From: Chelatococcus reniformis
GTDB lineage: Bacteria > Pseudomonadota > Alphaproteobacteria > Rhizobiales > Beijerinckiaceae
Assembly (NCBI RefSeq): GCF_014640075.1
Contig: NZ_BMGG01000002.1
Coordinates: 682,001-746,000 of the forward strand
Reading direction: 5' to 3'
DNA length: 64,000 nt
The stretch's first letter is position 1. Every line of letters starts with the position of its first letter. Positions 21,906 through 63,052 of the stretch are shown here, piece after piece. Position numbers and translations under genes: made by a program. The notes below the pieces were generated by a model. It was given only the letters and a program-made list of their open reading frames with translations. It searched no databases and was not told the origin of the DNA.

Positions 21906-22190
21906 GTGAGCAAGCTCGTCCCGCGATCTGGCGTGTGCGCCGCGGCGCTCGCCGCGGTCGTCGTCGCCGCCACGACCACGGCTTCGGCGGATGTCTGCGA
22001 CGACCTTTGGTATCAGCGCAACGCCATCTTCAAGGCGGCCGGCTATTGCTTCAAAACCAGCCGGGGCATCCGCGCCTTCGGCAACGCCGGCTGCGCCTAT
22101 GACGACGAGGCCGACGTGCCACTCTCGGCGCGCCAGAGCACCCGCGTACGACAGATCAAGGCCGACGAGCGCGCCCTCGGCTGCCGCTGA
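21906..22190 (+). CDS. Small secreted YARHG-type protein
   Basis: 94 aa from GTG. The hydrophobic segment AAALAAVVVAATTTASA is a signal peptide with likely cleavage before DVCDD. The mature part has four cysteines, starting CDDLWYQRNAIFKAAGYCF and containing AFGNAGCAYDD and a C-terminal CR, probably forming two disulfides. The arrangement LWxxRNxIxxxxGYCF matches the YARHG-like small envelope proteins I recall in Rhizobiales; their function is unknown. It starts only 21 nt past the rpmG terminator. Confidence 0.8.
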   Translation: MSKLVPRSGVCAAALAAVVVAATTTASADVCDDLWYQRNAIFKAAGYCFKTSRGIRAFGNAGCAYDDEADVPLSARQSTRVRQIKADERALGCR

Positions 22191-22206
22191 CGACCGGCAG
22201 ATGCCT

Positions 22207-22310
22207 ACAGCATTTCCGCGTTTCTTCGAATCACCGAAATACTCTATCTGTTTGATTTGCCGCGTTTTCTTCACGCGAACCGGCGTCCACTTCGCTCAAA
22301 AACGCTCTAG
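22207..22310. repeat. Dispersed two-stem repeat, copy A
   Basis: First of three copies (others at 59026-59122 and 61618-61723). It consists of a left palindrome (AGCATTTC ... GAAATACT) and a right one (GCGTTTTC ... AAAACGC) around the invariant core CTCTATCTGTTTGATTTG. This copy has more mismatches in the left stem. Its reverse strand carries an open frame beginning MKKTRQIKQIE, which is a repeat by-product rather than a gene. I recall near-identical intergenic repeats in many Bradyrhizobium-related genomes. Confidence 0.9.
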
Positions 22311-22623: not shown

Positions 22624-23056
22624 GCTACTCGTCCGGGTGCCGCGAATCGAAGCGATCGCAACGGCATTCGACACGGGCGAGGTTAACCGGGGCTTAGCGG
22701 TACGGCGCGGTCGCGCCGGCAACGTCCATACGGCGGGGAGCAGCAAGGTGGCCGGCCGGAGGCGGCGCCTGACGTACAGGCACACGCCTCCGGACCGGCC
22801 TAACCCCACGAAGCCAGGAGATGCGGCGGACCTAGCATCCGTAGGGCTGGGGCGTGGCATGCGGGTCGTGGACCCGCTGCGTCGCGACCAACCTAGCGGG
22901 CCTCGCAGCGAAAGCAATCGCCGGCCTGCGCCGCCCACAGGCAATGTGGCGTATGGTTAAGAGACGGTTGTCACCGCTCCGAGCGATTCCCGATCTCGCC
23001 AGCGGACCGCCATCCGAGCTCATCTAGCGGATGATCTCGCCCGATCACAGGATCGC
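22624..23056. other. Intergenic region between the 68-aa gene and divK
   Basis: 433 nt without a convincing gene on either strand. It carries a TTAA-N7-TTAG half-site at 22683-22697 that loosely resembles a CtrA box. I found no coding trace of pleD, no RNA gene and no repeat here. Confidence 0.6.
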
Positions 23057-52973: not shown

Positions 52974-52980
52974 CGGCCTG

Positions 52981-53035
52981 ACGATGGGGATGGGGTCCCC
53001 CGAAACCGCCGCACAGGCTGATGACTCCTACCAGG
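52981..53035 (+). promoter_or_regulatory. Fluoride riboswitch (crcB motif)
   Basis: Conserved aptamer elements in order: ACGATGGGG, TCCCCC, GAAACCGCC, GGCTGATGACTCCTACC. They match the fluoride aptamer (compare GGCGAUG ... GGCUGAUGGCCUCUAC). It lies on the crcB strand ahead of two crcB genes, which fits its known role of switching on fluoride export. Confidence 0.93.
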
Positions 53036-53054
53036 CGTATCGAGCGCGGTAGGA
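53026..53054 (+). promoter_or_regulatory. Alternative hairpin overlapping the riboswitch 3' strand
   Basis: TCCTACC (53026-53032) pairs perfectly with GGTAGGA (53048-53054), extended inside by GCG/CGC with a 2-nt bulge. The first arm is the 3' strand of the aptamer, so aptamer and hairpin exclude each other. This is the expected geometry for an expression platform; the following T content (ATTCCATTGTCT) is weak. Confidence 0.6.
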
Positions 53055-53694: not shown

Positions 53695-54111
53695 ATGCAG
53701 ACGGTCGACAAGCGGGATGCCGCCCTGCGGCTCTACCTGGCCGTCGGGTGCGGGGCGGCGATCGGCTCGCTACTCCGGTTTCTGGCGGGCGTGGTCATCG
53801 TCTCGACGCTGGGGCAGAGCGCGCTGCTGGCGACGGGGTTCGTCAACGTCGTCGGATCGTTCGTCATCATGCTCTTCGCAACGCTCACCGGACCGGATGG
53901 GCGGCTGTCCGTCGGTCCCGCCGGGCGGCAGTTCGTCATCGGCGGCCTCTGCGGCGGTTTCACCACCTTCTCGGCCATGAGCCTCGACGCATTCATCCTG
54001 CTCCTCGATGGCGACCTGCCGCTCGCCGCGATCTACCTCGCGACTGTCATCCTCGCTTCGCTGGCGGCTGCGTTGCTCGGTCACGGCCTGGCCGCGCGGC
54101 TCAACAACTAG
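53695..54111 (+). CDS. crcB: Fluoride exporter CrcB/Fluc, second copy
   Basis: 138 aa with four hydrophobic helices. Motifs are diverged but intact: [30 protein letters not shown]. Starts 6 nt after the first copy. Two adjacent crcB genes commonly encode heterodimeric Fluc, in which each has fixed, opposite topology. It ends 26 nt before the convergent lipB stop. Confidence 0.94.
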
Positions 54112-57019: not shown

Positions 57020-58948
57020 ATGATGGCATCGCGACGCGCGATCAGGACGATACTGGTCAACCTCATCGCCGATCTAGCGGCCACCTCCTGCGCCGTCGTC
57101 GCGTCGTTCTACCTCCGCTTCCAGGACGAACGCCTCGCCGCGTACCTGGATGAGCTGCCGCTCATCCTGGCCGTCCTGCTGCCGGTGGCGGCCGCCATTT
57201 TCCTTGCCGTGCGGCTGCCGGAGTCCAAATGGCGATTCGTCTCGCTGCCGGACGTCATCAAGATCGGGCGAACGACGCTCATGCTGGCGCTCGTCATCCT
57301 CGTCTTCGACACGGTCGTCTCGCACCCGGCGCTTCTCGGCCACAACTACTTCGGCCGTGCCTGGATCCTGCTGTTCCTGCTGCTGGAGATCCTGTTCCTG
57401 GCTGCGCCGCGCGTGGCCTACCGCGCCTTCAAGCAGCGGCAGGTGGCCGCCCAGGTGCCGCGCGAGGCACGGGAGGCGGCGCTGCTCGCCGGAACCGGCG
57501 TGGAGCTCGAGGCGCTGCTGCGGGCAATCGAGTCGGGGCCCCTCTCACGCCTGCGGCCGATCGGCCTGCTGACCCGCCGCACTGCCGACATCGGCCAGTC
57601 GATCCGAGGCGTCACGGTGCGCGGCGGCATCGCCGATCTGGCCACCGTGCTGCAGGATCTGGCGCGCGGAACGCCGCCCTCGGTCGTCGTCGTGGCGCCG
57701 TCGGCCATGGCGCCGGAGGCCAACCCCGGGATGGTCCTGAGCGTGGCCCGGCGCTTCGGCGTGCAGGTGATGCGTACCAATGCGCTCGACGCCGATGAGA
57801 TCGAGAGCGGCGCGGCCCAGCTGGCGCCCCTGTCGATGGAGGATCTGCTGCTGCGCCCGACGGTCACCGTCGACGAGGCCACGCTGACAGCGCTCGCCAG
57901 ACACCGCCGCATCGCCATCACCGGCGGCGGCGGCTCGATCGGCGGCGAGCTGGCGCGCCGCCTCGCCCGCTTCGGCGCGGGCGACATCCTGATCCTGGAG
58001 AATTCGGAGCCGGCGCTGCACGCCATCCTGGAGGATCTGTCGCGCGTCCCCACCTGCCGCGCCACCGGCCGCCTGTGCGACGTGCGTGACAGGGACCGGC
58101 TGTTTGCCATCCTCGCCGAGTTCGGGCCGCAGGTGGTCTACCATGCCGCGGCGCTGAAGCACGTGCACTACCTGGAGAAGGACTGGGGCGAAGGCATCCG
58201 CACCAACGTCTTCGGTGCCATGAACGCGGCGGATGCCGCGGTCGCGTGCGGTGCGGCGGCATTCGTCATGATCTCCACCGACAAGGCGGTGAAGCCCGTC
58301 TCCATTCTCGGCGCCACCAAGCGCCTGGCGGAGATGTACGTCCAGGCCAAGGATGCGGCGCTCACGCGCCGGACCAACGGCGCGGCGGCCACCCGTCTCG
58401 TCGTCGTCCGCTTCGGCAACGTGCTCGGCTCGAACGGCTCGGTCGTGCCCAAGTTCCGCGAGCAGATCGACAAGGGCGGTCCGGTCACCGTCACCCACCC
58501 GGACATGGTGCGCTTCTTCATGACCATCCCGGAGGCGTGCGATCTGGTCGCCGTCGCCTCCTTCCACGCCATCGACGATCCGGCCAAGGCGACGTCGATC
58601 TACGTGCTGAACATGGGCCGGCCCGTCAAGATCCTCGATCTCGCCACGCGCATGATCGAGCTCGCCGGCCTGAAGCCGGGCGAGGACATCCGCATCGAGT
58701 TCAGCGGCATGCGGCCGGGCGAACGCCTGGAGGAGATCGTGCTCGACGACAGCGAGGCGACGCACCAGGTCAACCTGCCGGGCATCATCGCCGCCGACCC
58801 GAGCTTCCCCGATGTCGCCGTGCTCGAGCGCTGGCTCGATGCGCTGGCGGCCGCCCTTGCCAGCGGCGACCAGATCAAGGTCTACGGGGTGATCAACGCC
58901 GCGCTGCCCACCTTCCCCACCACTCCCAAGGACATGCACGCGGCCTGA
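57020..58948 (+). CDS. CapD/FlaA1-type nucleoside-diphosphate sugar 4,6-dehydratase (membrane)
   Basis: 642 aa (second ATG at 57023 also possible). Four hydrophobic segments in the first 130 residues, a CoA-binding-like Rossmann region, then the extended SDR catalytic domain with ITGGGGSIGGELARRL, YHAAALKHVHYLEKD, STDKAVKPVSILGATKR and FGNVLGSNGSVVPKFR. Family members invert or dehydrate UDP-GlcNAc-type sugars for surface polysaccharide synthesis. No glycosyltransferase cluster is adjacent. Confidence 0.93.
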   Translation: MMASRRAIRTILVNLIADLAATSCAVVASFYLRFQDERLAAYLDELPLILAVLLPVAAAIFLAVRLPESKWRFVSLPDVIKIGRTTLMLALVILVFDTVVSHPALLGHNYFGRAWILLFLLLEILFLAAPRVAYRAFKQRQVAAQVPREAREAALLAGTGVELEALLRAIESGPLSRLRPIGLLTRRTADIGQSIRGVTVRGGIADLATVLQDLARGTPPSVVVVAPSAMAPEANPGMVLSVARRFGVQVMRTNALDADEIESGAAQLAPLSMEDLLLRPTVTVDEATLTALARHRRIAITGGGGSIGGELARRLARFGAGDILILENSEPALHAILEDLSRVPTCRATGRLCDVRDRDRLFAILAEFGPQVVYHAAALKHVHYLEKDWGEGIRTNVFGAMNAADAAVACGAAAFVMISTDKAVKPVSILGATKRLAEMYVQAKDAALTRRTNGAAATRLVVVRFGNVLGSNGSVVPKFREQIDKGGPVTVTHPDMVRFFMTIPEACDLVAVASFHAIDDPAKATSIYVLNMGRPVKILDLATRMIELAGLKPGEDIRIEFSGMRPGERLEEIVLDDSEATHQVNLPGIIAADPSFPDVAVLERWLDALAAALASGDQIKVYGVINAALPTFPTTPKDMHAA

Positions 58949-59025
58949 GGCGCGCCGGCACCCTCGCGCATGATTCCAAGAAAGGCGGCCGCCGGTCTTG
59001 GATAAATTCTGCTCGAACAAAGACT

Positions 59026-59122
59026 TAGAGCGTTTCCGCGTTTCTTCGAATCGCCGGAATGCTCTATCTGTTTGATTTGTCGCGTTTTCTTCACGCGAGC
59101 CGGCGTCGCTCGAAAACGCTAG
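59026..59122. repeat. Dispersed two-stem repeat, copy B
   Basis: Same element as at 22207 and 61618: left stem TAGAGCGTTTC ... GGAATGCTCTA, core TCTGTTTGATTTGTCGCG, right stem GCGTTTTC ... GAAAACGC. It lacks 8 nt (CCACTTCG region) relative to copy C. The end CTAG of the repeat is the stop codon (TAG) of the downstream minus-strand molybdenum subunit gene. Confidence 0.9.
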
Positions 59123-61518
59123 GGGCCGGGAGCGTCCGGGCCGGCCATGCGACGGCCCTGCCACGACGCGGCGGCGAGCGGGCGCAGCAGGTTGTCGTCC
59201 CAGGCGGTGGCGATATGCGGAAAGTCGAGCGGCAGGCCACGCCCCAGCAGCAGTTCGAGCACGCGCGGCGGCGTCAGCGGGAGCTCCTGCACGCGCCGTC
59301 CCGTGGCATTGGCAACGGCACAGGCGATGGCCGCGGCGACGTTGAGAATCGGCACCTCGCCGGCGCCTTTGGTCCCGAGCGGCCCGATCGACGGGGCCCC
59401 CTCGAACAGGCTGATCTCCACCGGCACCACGTCCTGCGCCAGCGGCACGCGGTAGGTCTCAAAGCCGCTCTGGCGGATGCTTCCGTCGGCGCCGATCGAG
59501 ATCTCCTCGTGCAGCGCATAGCCGAGCCCTTGGGTGACGCCGCCCTGGATCTGCCCGTAGATGGCACGTGGATTGAGCGCGCGTCCGACATCCTGCACGA
59601 CGGCGTAGCTCAGCACCTCCACATGACCCGTGTCGGGGTCGACCGCGACCTCGCATTCGTGCACGGCAAAGACCGGGATATCCAGCGCATCGATGAAGTG
59701 CCCGGCGGCGCAGCCCGGCATGGCGGCGACGCCCGGCCCGGTGAACGAGCCGCTGCCGGCGATAGGGCCGACGAGTTTCTGTGCCTGGACGGCAACCTCG
59801 GCGATACTCGCTCCCGTTCCCGGCCGCCCGGCGATCTCGACGCGGCCGTTTGCCAGGGTGAGGCCTTCTGGCGGCGTCTGCAGCATGCCCGAGGCGACGT
59901 CCAGCAGCTTTCGGCGCACCTCGCTCGCCGCGGCCATGCTCGCGGCGCCGAGCGAAACCGTGGTGCGGCCGCCGCCGACGCCGACGTCATAGCCGCCGGC
60001 GTCCGTGTCCGCGGCGCGGACCACGACGTCCTGCGGCTTGAGGCCGAGCGTGTGAGCGACGATCTGCGGCAGGCCCTGCATCATCGAGCCCGAGCCGATC
60101 TCGACCCCCGACGTCACCAGCGTGGCGCTGCCGTCCGCATTGAGGTTGACCGTTGCGGCGGACGGCCCGACGAAGACGAACCAGGTGCCGACCGTGGTGG
60201 CGCGCCCATAGAGGCGGTCGCCGGCCTGCGCCTGCTTCGACGGCCGCGCGGCCCGCAACCCGGCCATGCGGTCCAACATCGGACCCAGCACGTCGCCTTC
60301 GAAGATCTGGCCGGTGGCGCCCAGATTGCCGTCGCCGAGGACATTGCGCCGGCGAAACTCCAGCGGATCCATGCCGATCGCCTCACAGATCTCGTCGGTG
60401 TGCCGCTCCAGCGCAAAGGTGTTGTAGGTGCCGTTGCAGGCCCGGAACGCGCCATTGGGGGCGGTGTTCGTGTAGACCGCGCGGCTCGCCAGGCGCACGG
60501 ATCCGAGCTTGTAGTTGCCGCCGAGAGTGTGCGCGGTCATCGTCGTCAGGAAAATCTGCTCGCCGCCGTAGGCGCCGCAATCCATCAGCACGACGGCCTC
60601 ACGGCCGGCGATCTCGCCGTCCTTGGTCACCGCCGAGCGGATGCGGATCTCCGCGTTTTCGCGGCTGAGGCAGGTCAGCATCTCCTCCTGACGGGAATTG
60701 ACCAGACGGACCGGGGCCTCGGCATGGCGCGCCAGCAGGGCGGCATAGGGCTCGAGCGCGCAATCGAACTTGAGGCCAAAGCCTCCGCCGACCGCGGGCA
60801 CAGTCACCCGCACCGCCGACGGCAGTACATCGAGCAGATGTGCGGTCACGTTGCGCACCGTCCAGGGCGCCTGGGTCGAGGTCTCGATGTGGCAGCGCCC
60901 GTCCTCGAAGGCGGCGATCGCCGCGCGCGGCTCGAAGGACAGGTGGTTCTGCCGCCCCACGCGGAACAGGCTCTCGACCACGGTCACGTCCGCACGCGCA
61001 AACGCCGCCTCCGGGTCGCCGCGGAGCACGGTCGCCTCCCAGGCGACGTTGCCGCCGTGCGCACCGCCTTCCACCAGCACCTCGTAGTCGCGCCAGTCCG
61101 GGTGGACCAGCGACGCGCTCGGCCCCAGCGCCTCGGCCATGGTGATGACGGCGGGCAGCGGCTCGAGCTCGACGACGATCGCCGCGGCGGCGGCCTGCGC
61201 CTGGGCAAGCGTATCGGCGGCCACAGCCGCCATGGGCTCGCCGTGGTAGCGGACGCGGCCTGCGGCGAACAGCGGATGATCCGCAATGCCGATGCCGTGC
61301 CGGCCCGGCGCATGCTCCGCGGTCACCACCGCGCGCACGCCCGGCATGGCGCGCGCCGCCGCCGTGTCGATGCGCAGAATGCGCGCCGACGGCACCGGGG
61401 CGCGCAGCAGGGCTGCGTGAAGCACGCCCGAGACGTCCCGGTCGATCGTATAGCGCGTGCGCCCGCGCAGCTTGTCGCGTGCATCGCGCCGCGGGAAGTT
61501 GAGGGTCACCTCGGCCAT
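59119..61518 (-). CDS. Xanthine dehydrogenase family, molybdopterin-binding large subunit
   Basis: 799 aa. Molybdopterin-binding subunit of a CoxL/XdhB-type hydroxylase. The N-terminal a/b-hammerhead domain (RRDARDKLRGRTRYTIDRDV) leads to the Mo domain with VPAVGGGFGLKFD, NTAPNGAFRACNGTYN, GVEIGSGSMMQGL and GTKGAGEVPILN, whose Glu (about E721) is the usual catalytic base. The GAFRACNG loop departs from the more common GAFRG form, so substrate is uncertain. The stop codon is provided by repeat copy B. Confidence 0.92.
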   Translation of the reverse strand: MAEVTLNFPRRDARDKLRGRTRYTIDRDVSGVLHAALLRAPVPSARILRIDTAAARAMPGVRAVVTAEHAPGRHGIGIADHPLFAAGRVRYHGEPMAAVAADTLAQAQAAAAAIVVELEPLPAVITMAEALGPSASLVHPDWRDYEVLVEGGAHGGNVAWEATVLRGDPEAAFARADVTVVESLFRVGRQNHLSFEPRAAIAAFEDGRCHIETSTQAPWTVRNVTAHLLDVLPSAVRVTVPAVGGGFGLKFDCALEPYAALLARHAEAPVRLVNSRQEEMLTCLSRENAEIRIRSAVTKDGEIAGREAVVLMDCGAYGGEQIFLTTMTAHTLGGNYKLGSVRLASRAVYTNTAPNGAFRACNGTYNTFALERHTDEICEAIGMDPLEFRRRNVLGDGNLGATGQIFEGDVLGPMLDRMAGLRAARPSKQAQAGDRLYGRATTVGTWFVFVGPSAATVNLNADGSATLVTSGVEIGSGSMMQGLPQIVAHTLGLKPQDVVVRAADTDAGGYDVGVGGGRTTVSLGAASMAAASEVRRKLLDVASGMLQTPPEGLTLANGRVEIAGRPGTGASIAEVAVQAQKLVGPIAGSGSFTGPGVAAMPGCAAGHFIDALDIPVFAVHECEVAVDPDTGHVEVLSYAVVQDVGRALNPRAIYGQIQGGVTQGLGYALHEEISIGADGSIRQSGFETYRVPLAQDVVPVEISLFEGAPSIGPLGTKGAGEVPILNVAAAIACAVANATGRRVQELPLTPPRVLELLLGRGLPLDFPHIATAWDDNLLRPLAAASWQGRRMAGPDAPGP

Positions 61519-61562
61519 GGGCTGCTCCTGCGGGCTGAAGCATCGGACCCAAGACGTGAACG

Positions 61563-61599
61563 CGGGCTCTTGGAAGAATCCGGGCTCTTGGGATGAATC
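61563..61599. repeat. Tandem 18/19-bp repeat between Fe-S and Mo subunit genes
   Basis: CGGGCTCTTGGAAGAATC (61563-61580) is followed by CGGGCTCTTGGGATGAATC (61581-61599). It lies next to repeat copy C and resembles the sequence preceding copy B, so it is probably part of the same element. Confidence 0.6.
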
Positions 61600-61617
61600 G
61601 ATGCTGAGACGAAGGGG

Positions 61618-61723
61618 CTAGAGCATTTCCGCGTTTCTTCGAATCGCCGAAATGCTCTATCTGTTTGATCTGGCGCGTTTTCTTCACGCAAACCGGCGTC
61701 CACTTCGCTCGAAAACGCTCTAG
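61618..61723. repeat. Dispersed two-stem repeat, copy C
   Basis: The most complete copy: TAGAGCATTTC pairs perfectly with GAAATGCTCTA (11 bp) and GCGTTTTC with GAAAACGC. It lies between two cotranscribed genes. Its terminal CTAG supplies the stop codon (TAG, 61720-61722) of the upstream Fe-S subunit gene on the minus strand. Confidence 0.92.
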
Positions 61724-62166
61724 AGAGAAAGCACCGCGTCGATGATCCGCTCGTAGCCGGTACAGCGGCACACGTTGCCGCTCAGCGCGGCCTTCACCTC
61801 GTCGCGCGTCGGACGAGGCGTGACCGCAAGGAAGCCGCTCAGGCTCATCAGCATGCCTGGAAAGCACATGCCGCATTGCACGACGTCGTGCTCCTCCATC
61901 ACCTGCTGCAAAGGCGAGAGCGCCCCATCGGGCGCGAGCGACTCGACGGTGCGTATGCGGGCACCGACGGCGAGACCCGCCGGCAGCAGGCAGGCCATGA
62001 CCGGGTGGTCGTCGAGCAACACCGTGCAGGCCCCACAGAATCCTTCCCGGCAGACCGGCTTGGCCCCTTTGAGGTGGAACTCGTCGCGCAGGACATCGAC
62101 GAGCGGCGTCATGGCGCCGTGGCCGCTGGTGCGGTCCTCGCCGTTCACGGTGAGCAGCAGCGCCAT
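61720..62166 (-). CDS. Xanthine dehydrogenase family, 2Fe-2S small subunit
   Basis: 148 aa. The electron-transfer subunit with two 2Fe-2S clusters: N-terminal plant-type CREGFCGACTV ... VMAC, and C-terminal CGMCFPGM ... CRCTGYERI. It passes electrons from molybdenum to FAD. The last four residues (VLSL) precede a TAG contributed by the repeat, where the family normally has a few more residues. It follows the FAD subunit by 19 nt. Confidence 0.94.
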   Translation of the reverse strand: MALLLTVNGEDRTSGHGAMTPLVDVLRDEFHLKGAKPVCREGFCGACTVLLDDHPVMACLLPAGLAVGARIRTVESLAPDGALSPLQQVMEEHDVVQCGMCFPGMLMSLSGFLAVTPRPTRDEVKAALSGNVCRCTGYERIIDAVLSL

Positions 62167-62185
62167 GGCTGACCTCGTCCTCCGT

Positions 62186-63052
62186 TCAGCTGTGCGGTAG
62201 AAGGGCTTGCGCGGCGCGCCGCACAAGGCTGGGCAGCACCGCCAGGCGATACCAGCCGGCCGCCTCGACGCCGTCGCGGGCTACGAAATCGTCGAGACAA
62301 CGGCCGGCGAGCGCGGCGGCCGCCTGCGGATCGAGCGGCCGGCCGACGAGGCCGGCCTCCAGCGTCTCCCAACGGCGCGCCACGACCTCGACCGAACCCA
62401 CGGCGGCGCGCGCGGTCAGCACCGTGCTGTTCTGCCCGAGCTTCACGGCCAGGCTGACGATCGCGACGGGATAGTCGCCGGACCTGCGCAACGGGAGGCG
62501 GACGTGCGCGGAACCGCAAGCGGTGCGCGCCACGACGATGCGCGACAGCAGCGTGCCGGGGGCGAGTTCGGAACGCCGGGCGAGGAAGCGCTCCATCGAG
62601 ATCCGTTCGACGCCGTCAGGCGACGTCAGCTCGACGTTGGCGGCAAGACAGATCAGCGCCGGAACCAGATCAGCGGAGGCGAAGTCCCAGGCGCAGAGAT
62701 TGCCGCCGATCGTCGCGACTTGCCGGACCGCCGGATTGGCGGAACTGGCGGCCGCCTGCACCAGGGCGGCACAGCCGTCGATGTGCGCGAGGGCCGATGC
62801 GAGCGCCGCATGGGTGACGCAGGCCCCGATGGTGATGTCGCGCTCGCCGATCTCGACCCGACGCAGTTCGTCGATCCGCGAGAGCGCCACATAGGAGCGG
62901 TCCTGCTGGGGCCCGCCGCGCAACGGCGCACGCATGATCCACGTCGCCCCGGCGAGCGGGGCGCCGGCGTGGCCGCGATCCGCCAGCGCCGCCACCGCGC
63001 CGTGCAGCGTCGTTGCCACGTGGAAGGTGTCTGCTCCCGTCTTCATGCGCAT
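62186..63052 (-). CDS. Xanthine dehydrogenase family, FAD-binding medium subunit
   Basis: 288 aa (ATG at 63052; MKTGA at 63046 also possible). PLAGATWIMRAPLR and VATIGGNLCAWDFASADL are the FAD-binding motifs, though the first deviates from the usual AGGTDL. It transfers electrons from the Fe-S subunit to an acceptor. First gene of the FAD-FeS-Mo operon (coxMSL order). Confidence 0.93.
   Translation of the reverse strand: MRMKTGADTFHVATTLHGAVAALADRGHAGAPLAGATWIMRAPLRGGPQQDRSYVALSRIDELRRVEIGERDITIGACVTHAALASALAHIDGCAALVQAAASSANPAVRQVATIGGNLCAWDFASADLVPALICLAANVELTSPDGVERISMERFLARRSELAPGTLLSRIVVARTACGSAHVRLPLRRSGDYPVAIVSLAVKLGQNSTVLTARAAVGSVEVVARRWETLEAGLVGRPLDPQAAAALAGRCLDDFVARDGVEAAGWYRLAVLPSLVRRAAQALLPHS

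Follow-up and report, generated by a model that had tools for sequence, protein, structure and literature searches.

Two consecutive genes of a molybdenum hydroxylase in Chelatococcus reniformis, on the minus strand of a 64,000-nucleotide stretch of contig NZ_BMGG01000002.1 (positions 682,001 to 746,000; this whole stretch is the window of the text below), both stop exactly at an end of a palindromic repeat of about 100 bp. Has the repeat cut these genes short or supplied them with new stop codons, or were the stops in place before it arrived? The overlap of repeat ends and stop codons is a real and general pattern. When other genomic copies were inspected, as the first-pass annotation of this DNA had suggested, 83 of 185 had an in-frame gene stop at an end, whether or not their ends were intact. 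We consider it probable that the repeat is a non-autonomous element resembling a miniature inverted-repeat transposable element (MITE), of the kind of the Caulobacter CcrM-associated intergenic repeats (CIR) and the Rhizobium-specific intergenic mosaic elements (RIME), that its insertion at a TA rebuilds stop codons, and that the surviving copies were sorted by selection.

The repeat at the molybdenum-hydroxylase genes

Three repeat copies, A, B and C, are found in the window, all on the plus strand. Their positions and those of the genes concerned are as follows; the empty sites were rebuilt from the flanks.

59025..59122, plus strand: copy B with flanking target bases; rebuilt empty site TTAG
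59119..61518, minus strand: gene of the Mo (large) subunit of a molybdenum hydroxylase, 799 codons
61618..61723, plus strand: copy C, target bases included, located between the genes for the Fe-S and Mo subunits; its empty site is rebuilt as CTAG
61619..61620, strand-neutral: left TA of copy C
61721..61722, strand-neutral: right TA of copy C, the first two bases of the Fe-S gene's minus-strand TAG
61720..62226, minus strand: gene of the Fe-S (2Fe-2S) subunit of a molybdenum hydroxylase, ending in a TAG at copy C's right end
62186..63052, minus strand: in the same operon, a gene for a probable FAD-binding subunit, given for context
22205..22310, plus strand: copy A with target bases; its left-end GAGC has C for the first G

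According to the first-pass annotation, the end of copy B forms the stop of the Mo gene and the end of copy C that of the Fe-S gene. Both overlaps were confirmed, with both genes on the minus strand. Copy B is composed of an outer T (59025), TA (59026-59027), the element (59028-59119), TA (59120-59121) and an outer G (59122), and the TAG of the Mo gene at 59121-59119 consists of the target TA and the last base of the element. This copy lacks 6 nt of the right arm and another 2 nt close to its right end. In copy C an outer C (61618), TA (61619-61620), the element (61621-61720), TA (61721-61722) and an outer G (61723) follow each other, and the TAG of the Fe-S gene occupies 61722-61720 at the right end. 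The Fe-S gene counts 168 codons from a TTG start and 148 according to the codon-usage gene caller. The gene at 62186..63052, which we take to encode the FAD-binding subunit, was named by recognition. Copy A is off any stop; by eye, the TGA of an open frame (22188-22190) precedes it by 14 nt. As about half of all copies sit on stops, two consecutive genes carrying the repeat are unremarkable.

Anatomy and boundaries of the element

The genome (6.81 Mb) contains a few hundred copies. A pattern for the right end (at most 3 mismatches) matched at 229 places, one for the middle at 182 and one for the left arm at 191, with no match for any of the reversed controls; a DNA search returned 288 first-look candidates, 40 of which were scored. 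We fetched 185 distinct copies, 134 in a first batch (at least 71 query bases aligned, with flanks of 60 bases) and 51 in an independent second batch. They stem mainly from the 100 top-ranking places in each list of the three pattern searches and from the 40 top-ranking ones in the DNA search, so that the most divergent copies are missing.

Including the TAs and the outer bases, 107 of 134 copies are 106 bp long. Two hairpin arms are joined by a linker, and the first arm carries GANTC in 115 of 134 copies. The consensus ends, GAGCATTTCCG and GAGCGTTTTCG (the latter being the right end reverse-complemented), form terminal inverted repeats; together with the shortness, the high copy number and the lack of a coding gene these are the characteristics of a MITE. 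No Rfam family matched the repeat at the gathering score. Three of the six frames of the consensus are open. The open frames of the repeat (window 61506-61703; 59059 onward) can mislead annotation, as they translate into spurious peptides, for example VKKTRQIKQIEHFGDSKKRGNAL.

The usual layout of a copy is xTAGAGC...GCTCTAx, with a nearly constant TA and variable outer bases. The 91 first-batch copies in which both TAs are present have C..G as outer pair in 60 cases, C..A in 14, T..G in 6 and another pair in 11. In 96 copies with both TAs, 34 of 192 outer bases deviate vs 6 of 192 inner ones (p 3e-6). The same is seen in the 42 youngest copies, those with 0-2 mismatches in the core: on the left the outer base is C in 35 and on the right it is G in 27, while the first inner base is G in 41 and C in all 42, and the TA is intact in 37 and 38, respectively. 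Because the outer bases vary even in the youngest copies while the inner ones are nearly invariant, the former were assigned to the target. Judged from these sequences, the element is taken as GAGC...GCTC with a duplicated TA; the outer bases are assigned to the target, a YTAR site that is CTAG in most cases. Where repeats certainly adjoin each other (loci L038, L044, L059 and L071) a single TA lies between them, in GCTC-TA-GAGC or a near variant, and likewise one TA separates the copies of a tandem pair on a Xanthobacter plasmid. A second palindromic repeat family was also observed. It adjoins the element via one shared TA in the right flanks of L044, L059 and L071, reads GAGCATTTCTCGATCAG...GAAATGCTC in L044, and is represented by partial sequences at other places in the genome.

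These boundaries suggest the following course of events. The element would insert at the TA of a YTAR site, mostly CTAG, and duplicate the TA. With G as the first base after the TA at both ends, insertion into a TAG or TAA stop would rebuild TAG in the same codon and leave the protein unchanged or nearly so. Copy C would have entered a TAG stop, and copy B a TAA stop (outer T at 59025) that was converted to TAG. Insertions in genes and promoters would be lost by selection and those at 3' ends and stops would survive; such selective survival would leave about half of the remaining copies on a stop.

Position relative to genes

Positions were counted for the 119 copies with intact ends, with gene calls from our own codon-usage script, not a published gene finder. 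Unoccupied CTAG sites in 464 kb, comprising the window and twenty spaced 20-kb stretches, served as baseline; in the window CTAG is rare (29 vs 66.8 expected from shuffles). On a stop were 61 copies, 55 were intergenic and 3 intragenic, compared with 18, 84 and 49 of the unoccupied sites (stop vs intergenic, Fisher p 6.5e-8). A scatter at random distances from genes, which would have spoken against the first-pass annotation, was not found. The first batch alone gave 49 of 91 on a stop, 40 intergenic and 2 inside genes, as judged from the rebuilt empty sites; in the second batch of 51 there were 12 on a stop, 15 intergenic, 1 internal and 23 not intact. Of 220 intact ends, 63 lie in the stop frame vs 3 in the other two frames, and insertion in a random frame was rejected on this ground. 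The rebuilt empty site is a stop at all 62 of 62 gene ends (53 TAG, 9 TAA), a count that is weak alone as these ends had been recognised by the same criterion.

The ratio of occupied to unoccupied CTAG (first batch, CTAG targets), of which only the relative size is meaningful, amounts to 1.9 at stops, 0.8-1.0 up to 40 bp downstream of stops and 0.3 at 41-120 bp. It falls to 0.1-0.2 upstream of genes or far from them and to 0.04 inside genes. The proposed insertion at gene 3' ends is borne out by this peak. In both batches taken together, stop and near-3' sites exceed other non-coding sites (p 1e-9) and intragenic sites are depleted (p 9e-7). Convergent genes flank 28 of the 61 stop sites and 19 of the 55 others, with a baseline of 3/18 and 14/84 at unoccupied sites.

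Protein C-termini

Five conserved genes (MurA, UrtD, KdsD, NadC and a CoA transferase), named by recognition and NCBIfam matches, were hand-picked from 50 stop-site genes and compared with orthologues at other loci, none of which holds a repeat copy. The loci were found with a DNA query containing the last 150 bases of the gene, which favours like-ended relatives, and alignments were kept if they came to 25 residues or less from the C-terminus. Of 48 orthologues compared, 47 end no more than 2 residues away (MurA 24/25, UrtD 7/7, KdsD 5/5, NadC 10/10, CoA transferase 1/1); the sole exception is a MurA row, L279, that shows no stop. That repeat-free orthologues end at the same residue had been named in advance as a refutation. 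For these five genes it counts against truncation and not against insertion, and the earlier suggestion that native stops were truncated or replaced is not supported as a general rule. The orthologous stops are mostly TGA, which under the proposed mechanism means that these genes would have acquired a TAG or TAA stop prior to the arrival of the repeat.

In addition, the 40 stop-site proteins of more than 150 residues, out of the 50, were scanned against NCBIfam. Nine matched above the cut-off: thymidylate synthase, PurU, NadC, RfbA, MurA, UrtD, KpsF/KdsD, Tgt and a TonB C-terminal domain. The matches come within 0-2 positions of the model end, except for Tgt with 9; 10 residues of the Tgt protein remain past its match.

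Other genomes and plasmids

The right-end pattern matched in 19 of 60 genomes including the source genome, many of them with single matches, no more than the reversed control gave; two congeners showed 7 and 0 matches. In one further genome, G017, a stop coincides with an end in 6 of 11 copies, with the right end in 4 and with the left in 2, the latter being partially matching copies. A natural test is offered by G007, which belongs to another genus and has an element with the ends TA-TAGC on the left and GCTT-TA on the right. Among its 26 retained places (at least 86 aligned bases) the left end has T after the TA in 25, and the right end gives TAA in 21 and TAG in 2. With T after the TA on the left, only the right end can rebuild an in-frame stop (TAA). 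Stops lie at the right end in 9 of the 26 copies and at the left end in none (7 vs 0 among 22 intact copies), compared with 8 vs 6 by side for 3' neighbours not on a stop (Fisher p 0.048). Altogether 25 places in other genomes were examined; the 3 outside G017 and G007 are without stop overlap.

On plasmids, 198 records match. Eight places were examined; 6 of these are annotated in their records, and 3 of the 6 lie on stops: at the right end in Xanthobacter, at both ends in Shinella and at the left end in Methylovirgula. In Shinella, by eye, the two stops of a convergent gene pair overlap in one rebuilt CTAG and both are kept. No stop overlap was seen in two Bradyrhizobium plasmids and one Agrobacterium plasmid, a weak result given the incomplete plasmid gene table.

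Folding and mobilising enzyme

Copy C folds into a double hairpin on both strands (-37.2 and -43.2 kcal/mol, z -4.7 and -5.0). For copy B z is -3.0 and -2.2, and for copy A -0.6 and -3.1; the fold with two arms and a linker is adopted by copy C on both strands and by copy A on one strand alone. The strong double hairpin that had been proposed inside the operon is thus present in copy C and is weaker in copies B and A. A terminator scan of 58900-62300 gave 2 sites vs 1.6 expected from shuffles, with none inside copies B or C, although one falls within the final bases of the Fe-S gene.

Mobilisation would call for a transposase acting in trans on TA targets, perhaps of the IS630/Tc1 or the IS5/IS427 kind. 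A short IS5-like element of the same genome (L311 961-1771) is likewise located in CTAG and bordered by a TA at either end, the same kind of target as that of the repeat, but its ends, GAGGCTGTT (GAGGCTGTTA...TAACAGCCTC), share only GAG with the repeat.

Weighing of the explanations

Several observations weigh against the proposed insertion at TA with rebuilding of stops and sorting by selection. A search of the source genome for PF13358 (3 matches), PF13586 (4) and PF01797 (1), the three families covered, revealed no transposase with matching ends. No true empty site was seen within the species, and the targets are those rebuilt from the flanks; a search for paralogous empty sites in the fetched sequence of this genome gave six spanning matches, all of them the repeat itself or the same locus. 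For the operon, a DNA search in 36 relatives (at most 8 scored candidates each) returned only the repeat or short partial matches, which does not imply that the operon is absent there. Of 134 copies, 12 have GAGC or GCTC directly beside the right end and 9 beside the left, with the TA intact in 9 and 8 of them, but the left count is not above that of other GC-rich tetramers and stacking rests on the few certain cases. Stops are not occupied significantly more than sites 1-40 bp downstream of them (p 0.30), and stop codons are thus not shown to be special beyond being CTAG sites at gene ends. The omission of 66 of the 185 copies from the intact-end counts biases the stop fraction upward, as selection preserves stops; the count of 83 in 185 suffers less from this. 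An unexplained feature, as both ends rebuild TAG, is that the right end faces the gene in 59 cases vs 25 (185 copies, p 3e-4; 43 vs 18 intact), while 3' neighbours not on a stop are divided 25 vs 27 by side (vs 43:18, Fisher p 0.02). Further in-frame stops follow 12 and 21 codons on in the right-end strand and none for 33 codons in the left-end strand; that this difference bears on the bias would be a guess. The contrast in orientation in G007 is just barely significant. Finally, the stop of the Fe-S gene precedes those of all 20 listed orthologues with a readable stop by 2-16 codons.

This last point leads to the question whether insertion near 3' ends, as a rule, shortens the gene or puts a new stop in place of the old one. 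For the two molybdenum-hydroxylase genes, 25 listed orthologues each were compared, 5 of the Fe-S rows having no stop in reach. The Fe-S gene ends 5-8 codons short of its four closest orthologues among those listed, and the last base of the stop does derive from the element. The Mo subunit extends 15-28 residues past the ends of the four orthologues closest to it and exceeds 24 of the 25 listed in length, which means that it has lost nothing. The C-terminus check proposed for these genes thus argues against loss in the Mo protein and not in the Fe-S protein. As an aside, the extension of the Mo protein (window 59119-59180) may reflect an earlier stop lost before the repeat arrived. With 47 of 48 orthologues of five other genes ending within 2 residues at element-free loci and the above-cut-off NCBIfam models reaching the C-terminus, truncation as a rule was rejected; random insertion near gene ends would also predict all three frames and not 63 vs 3. 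We regard it as very improbable in general; in the Fe-S gene a small truncation may have occurred, to judge by the alignments. Also improbable, if slightly less so, is a unit like the repetitive extragenic palindromic (REP) sequences or bacterial interspersed mosaic elements (BIME), moved by a REP-associated tyrosine transposase (RAYT, Y1), in which CTAG is a tag of the element and supplies the whole stop. Two inverted hairpin arms that each start with CTAG would suit it. CTAG as part of the element was rejected nonetheless, as its C and G already vary in the youngest copies; the certain stacked cases share one TA instead of reading CTAG-CTAG, and the sole PF01797 match in the genome is partial and marginal (23.6 bits vs a cut-off of 23).

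Two further explanations concern the map itself. The repeat could be retained at 3' ends for a function such as termination or stabilisation of the mRNA 3' end, with positive selection setting its position and orientation. The good folding of copy C on both strands, the 3' bias, the excess between convergent genes and the right-end bias at stops agree with this. The terminator scan stays close to the shuffle expectation and has no site in copies B or C, though one at the very end of the Fe-S gene, 3' neighbours not on a stop have no significant orientation bias, and survival of neutral insertions predicts the same map; we rate a retained function as doubtful, though it is the most plausible of the alternatives. 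Slightly less plausible, and unlikely in our view, is a transposase that actively prefers gene 3' ends, for instance through terminator hairpins or a state of the DNA, beyond the YTAR site. It would account for the raised occupancy within 40 bp of stops as well as on them, but the orientation in G007 points to sorting after insertion, by the rebuilding of stops. Insertion at TA followed by selection thus remains the reading that we favour. Extended tentatively to CIR-type repeats of Alphaproteobacteria, it would make stop codons safe landing sites: the base after the TA would decide whether a stop is rebuilt, ends would evolve to be stop-safe, and ends that do not rebuild would be shut out. 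This extension is possible rather than probable. If it is true, roughly one third of the C-TAG stops of the genome would be occupied, a rough estimate from the 288 unconfirmed candidates, the share on stops and the unoccupied C-TAG stops.

Two further features of the window were noted. A fluoride riboswitch (RF01734, 56.8 bits) is located at 52977-53037 on the plus strand, upstream of an open frame at 53695 that we presume by recognition to be CrcB. The small RNA EcpR1 (Atu_C6; RF02500, 62.4 bits) matches at 22745-22849 on the minus strand, about 435 bp from copy A.

Comparison with known repeats

The repeat resembles the CIR and RIME repeats of Alphaproteobacteria, an analogy drawn from their descriptions. 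RIME1 (Osteras 1995) reportedly measures about 105 bp. It shares with the repeat described here, as does Bru-RS, the palindromic structure, the intergenic location, a length of about 105 bp and the occurrence in Hyphomicrobiales, a likeness of description and not of sequence. For Bru-RS, a palindromic intergenic repeat, the length is given as 103-105 bp (PMC2267715). CIR are alphaproteobacterial repeats of about 110 bp with two inverted-repeat arms and a linker, and they are described as having a terminal TA, a strictly intergenic location and, in one arm, a GANTC in the loop or close to it (PMC2229807; PMC10969869). A length of about 100-110 bp, two arms with a linker, the conserved GANTC in one arm and the terminal TA are thus common to CIR and this repeat, again by description and not by sequence. 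A difference is that three of the six consensus frames are open here, whereas the section on CIR in the 2007 review ascribes to them multiple stops in all six frames and leaves their mobility unexplained (PMC2229807). The passages concerned mention for CIR neither a duplicated TA within CTAG nor copies that lie on stop codons (PMC2229807; PMC10969869), and in the open-licence literature we found no description of TA-in-CTAG insertion or of a stop-codon rule for CIR or RIME repeats. TA inside CTAG offers a concrete and testable mechanism for the mobility of CIR. The stop-codon rule, if true, would explain how hundreds of copies spread with little harm in a gene-dense genome, and for annotation it means that a stop which a repeat seems to have created can still stand at its native position.

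Among other families, the termini of GTAG REPs often give a TAG stop to flanking open reading frames, and this is already in print (PMC3733652). To this the present analysis seems to add the TA-in-YTAR boundary of this repeat, its excess on stops relative to the sites available, the comparison of C-termini and the orientation test. As far as that report's account goes, GTAG REPs and this repeat are alike in being palindromic, near 3' ends and mostly between convergent or unidirectional genes; GTAG REPs are 20-40 bp long and own their tag, whereas in the present repeat the outer C and G of the CTAG act like bases of the target and the TA alone is repeated. A conserved GTAG tag at one end was not found, the context being CTAG with a variable outer base. 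RUP of Streptococcus pneumoniae, as summarised in the review, is a 107-bp MITE inserted at TA with stops in all six frames and IS630-Spn1 as proposed partner (PMC2229807), compared with three open frames and no partner found for the present repeat. MIRU of mycobacteria is outlined as a mobile repeat that inserts at start codons with translational coupling (PMC12548453). On that outline both repeats would spare gene expression by the re-use of a codon, MIRU at start codons and the present repeat at TAG and TAA stops.

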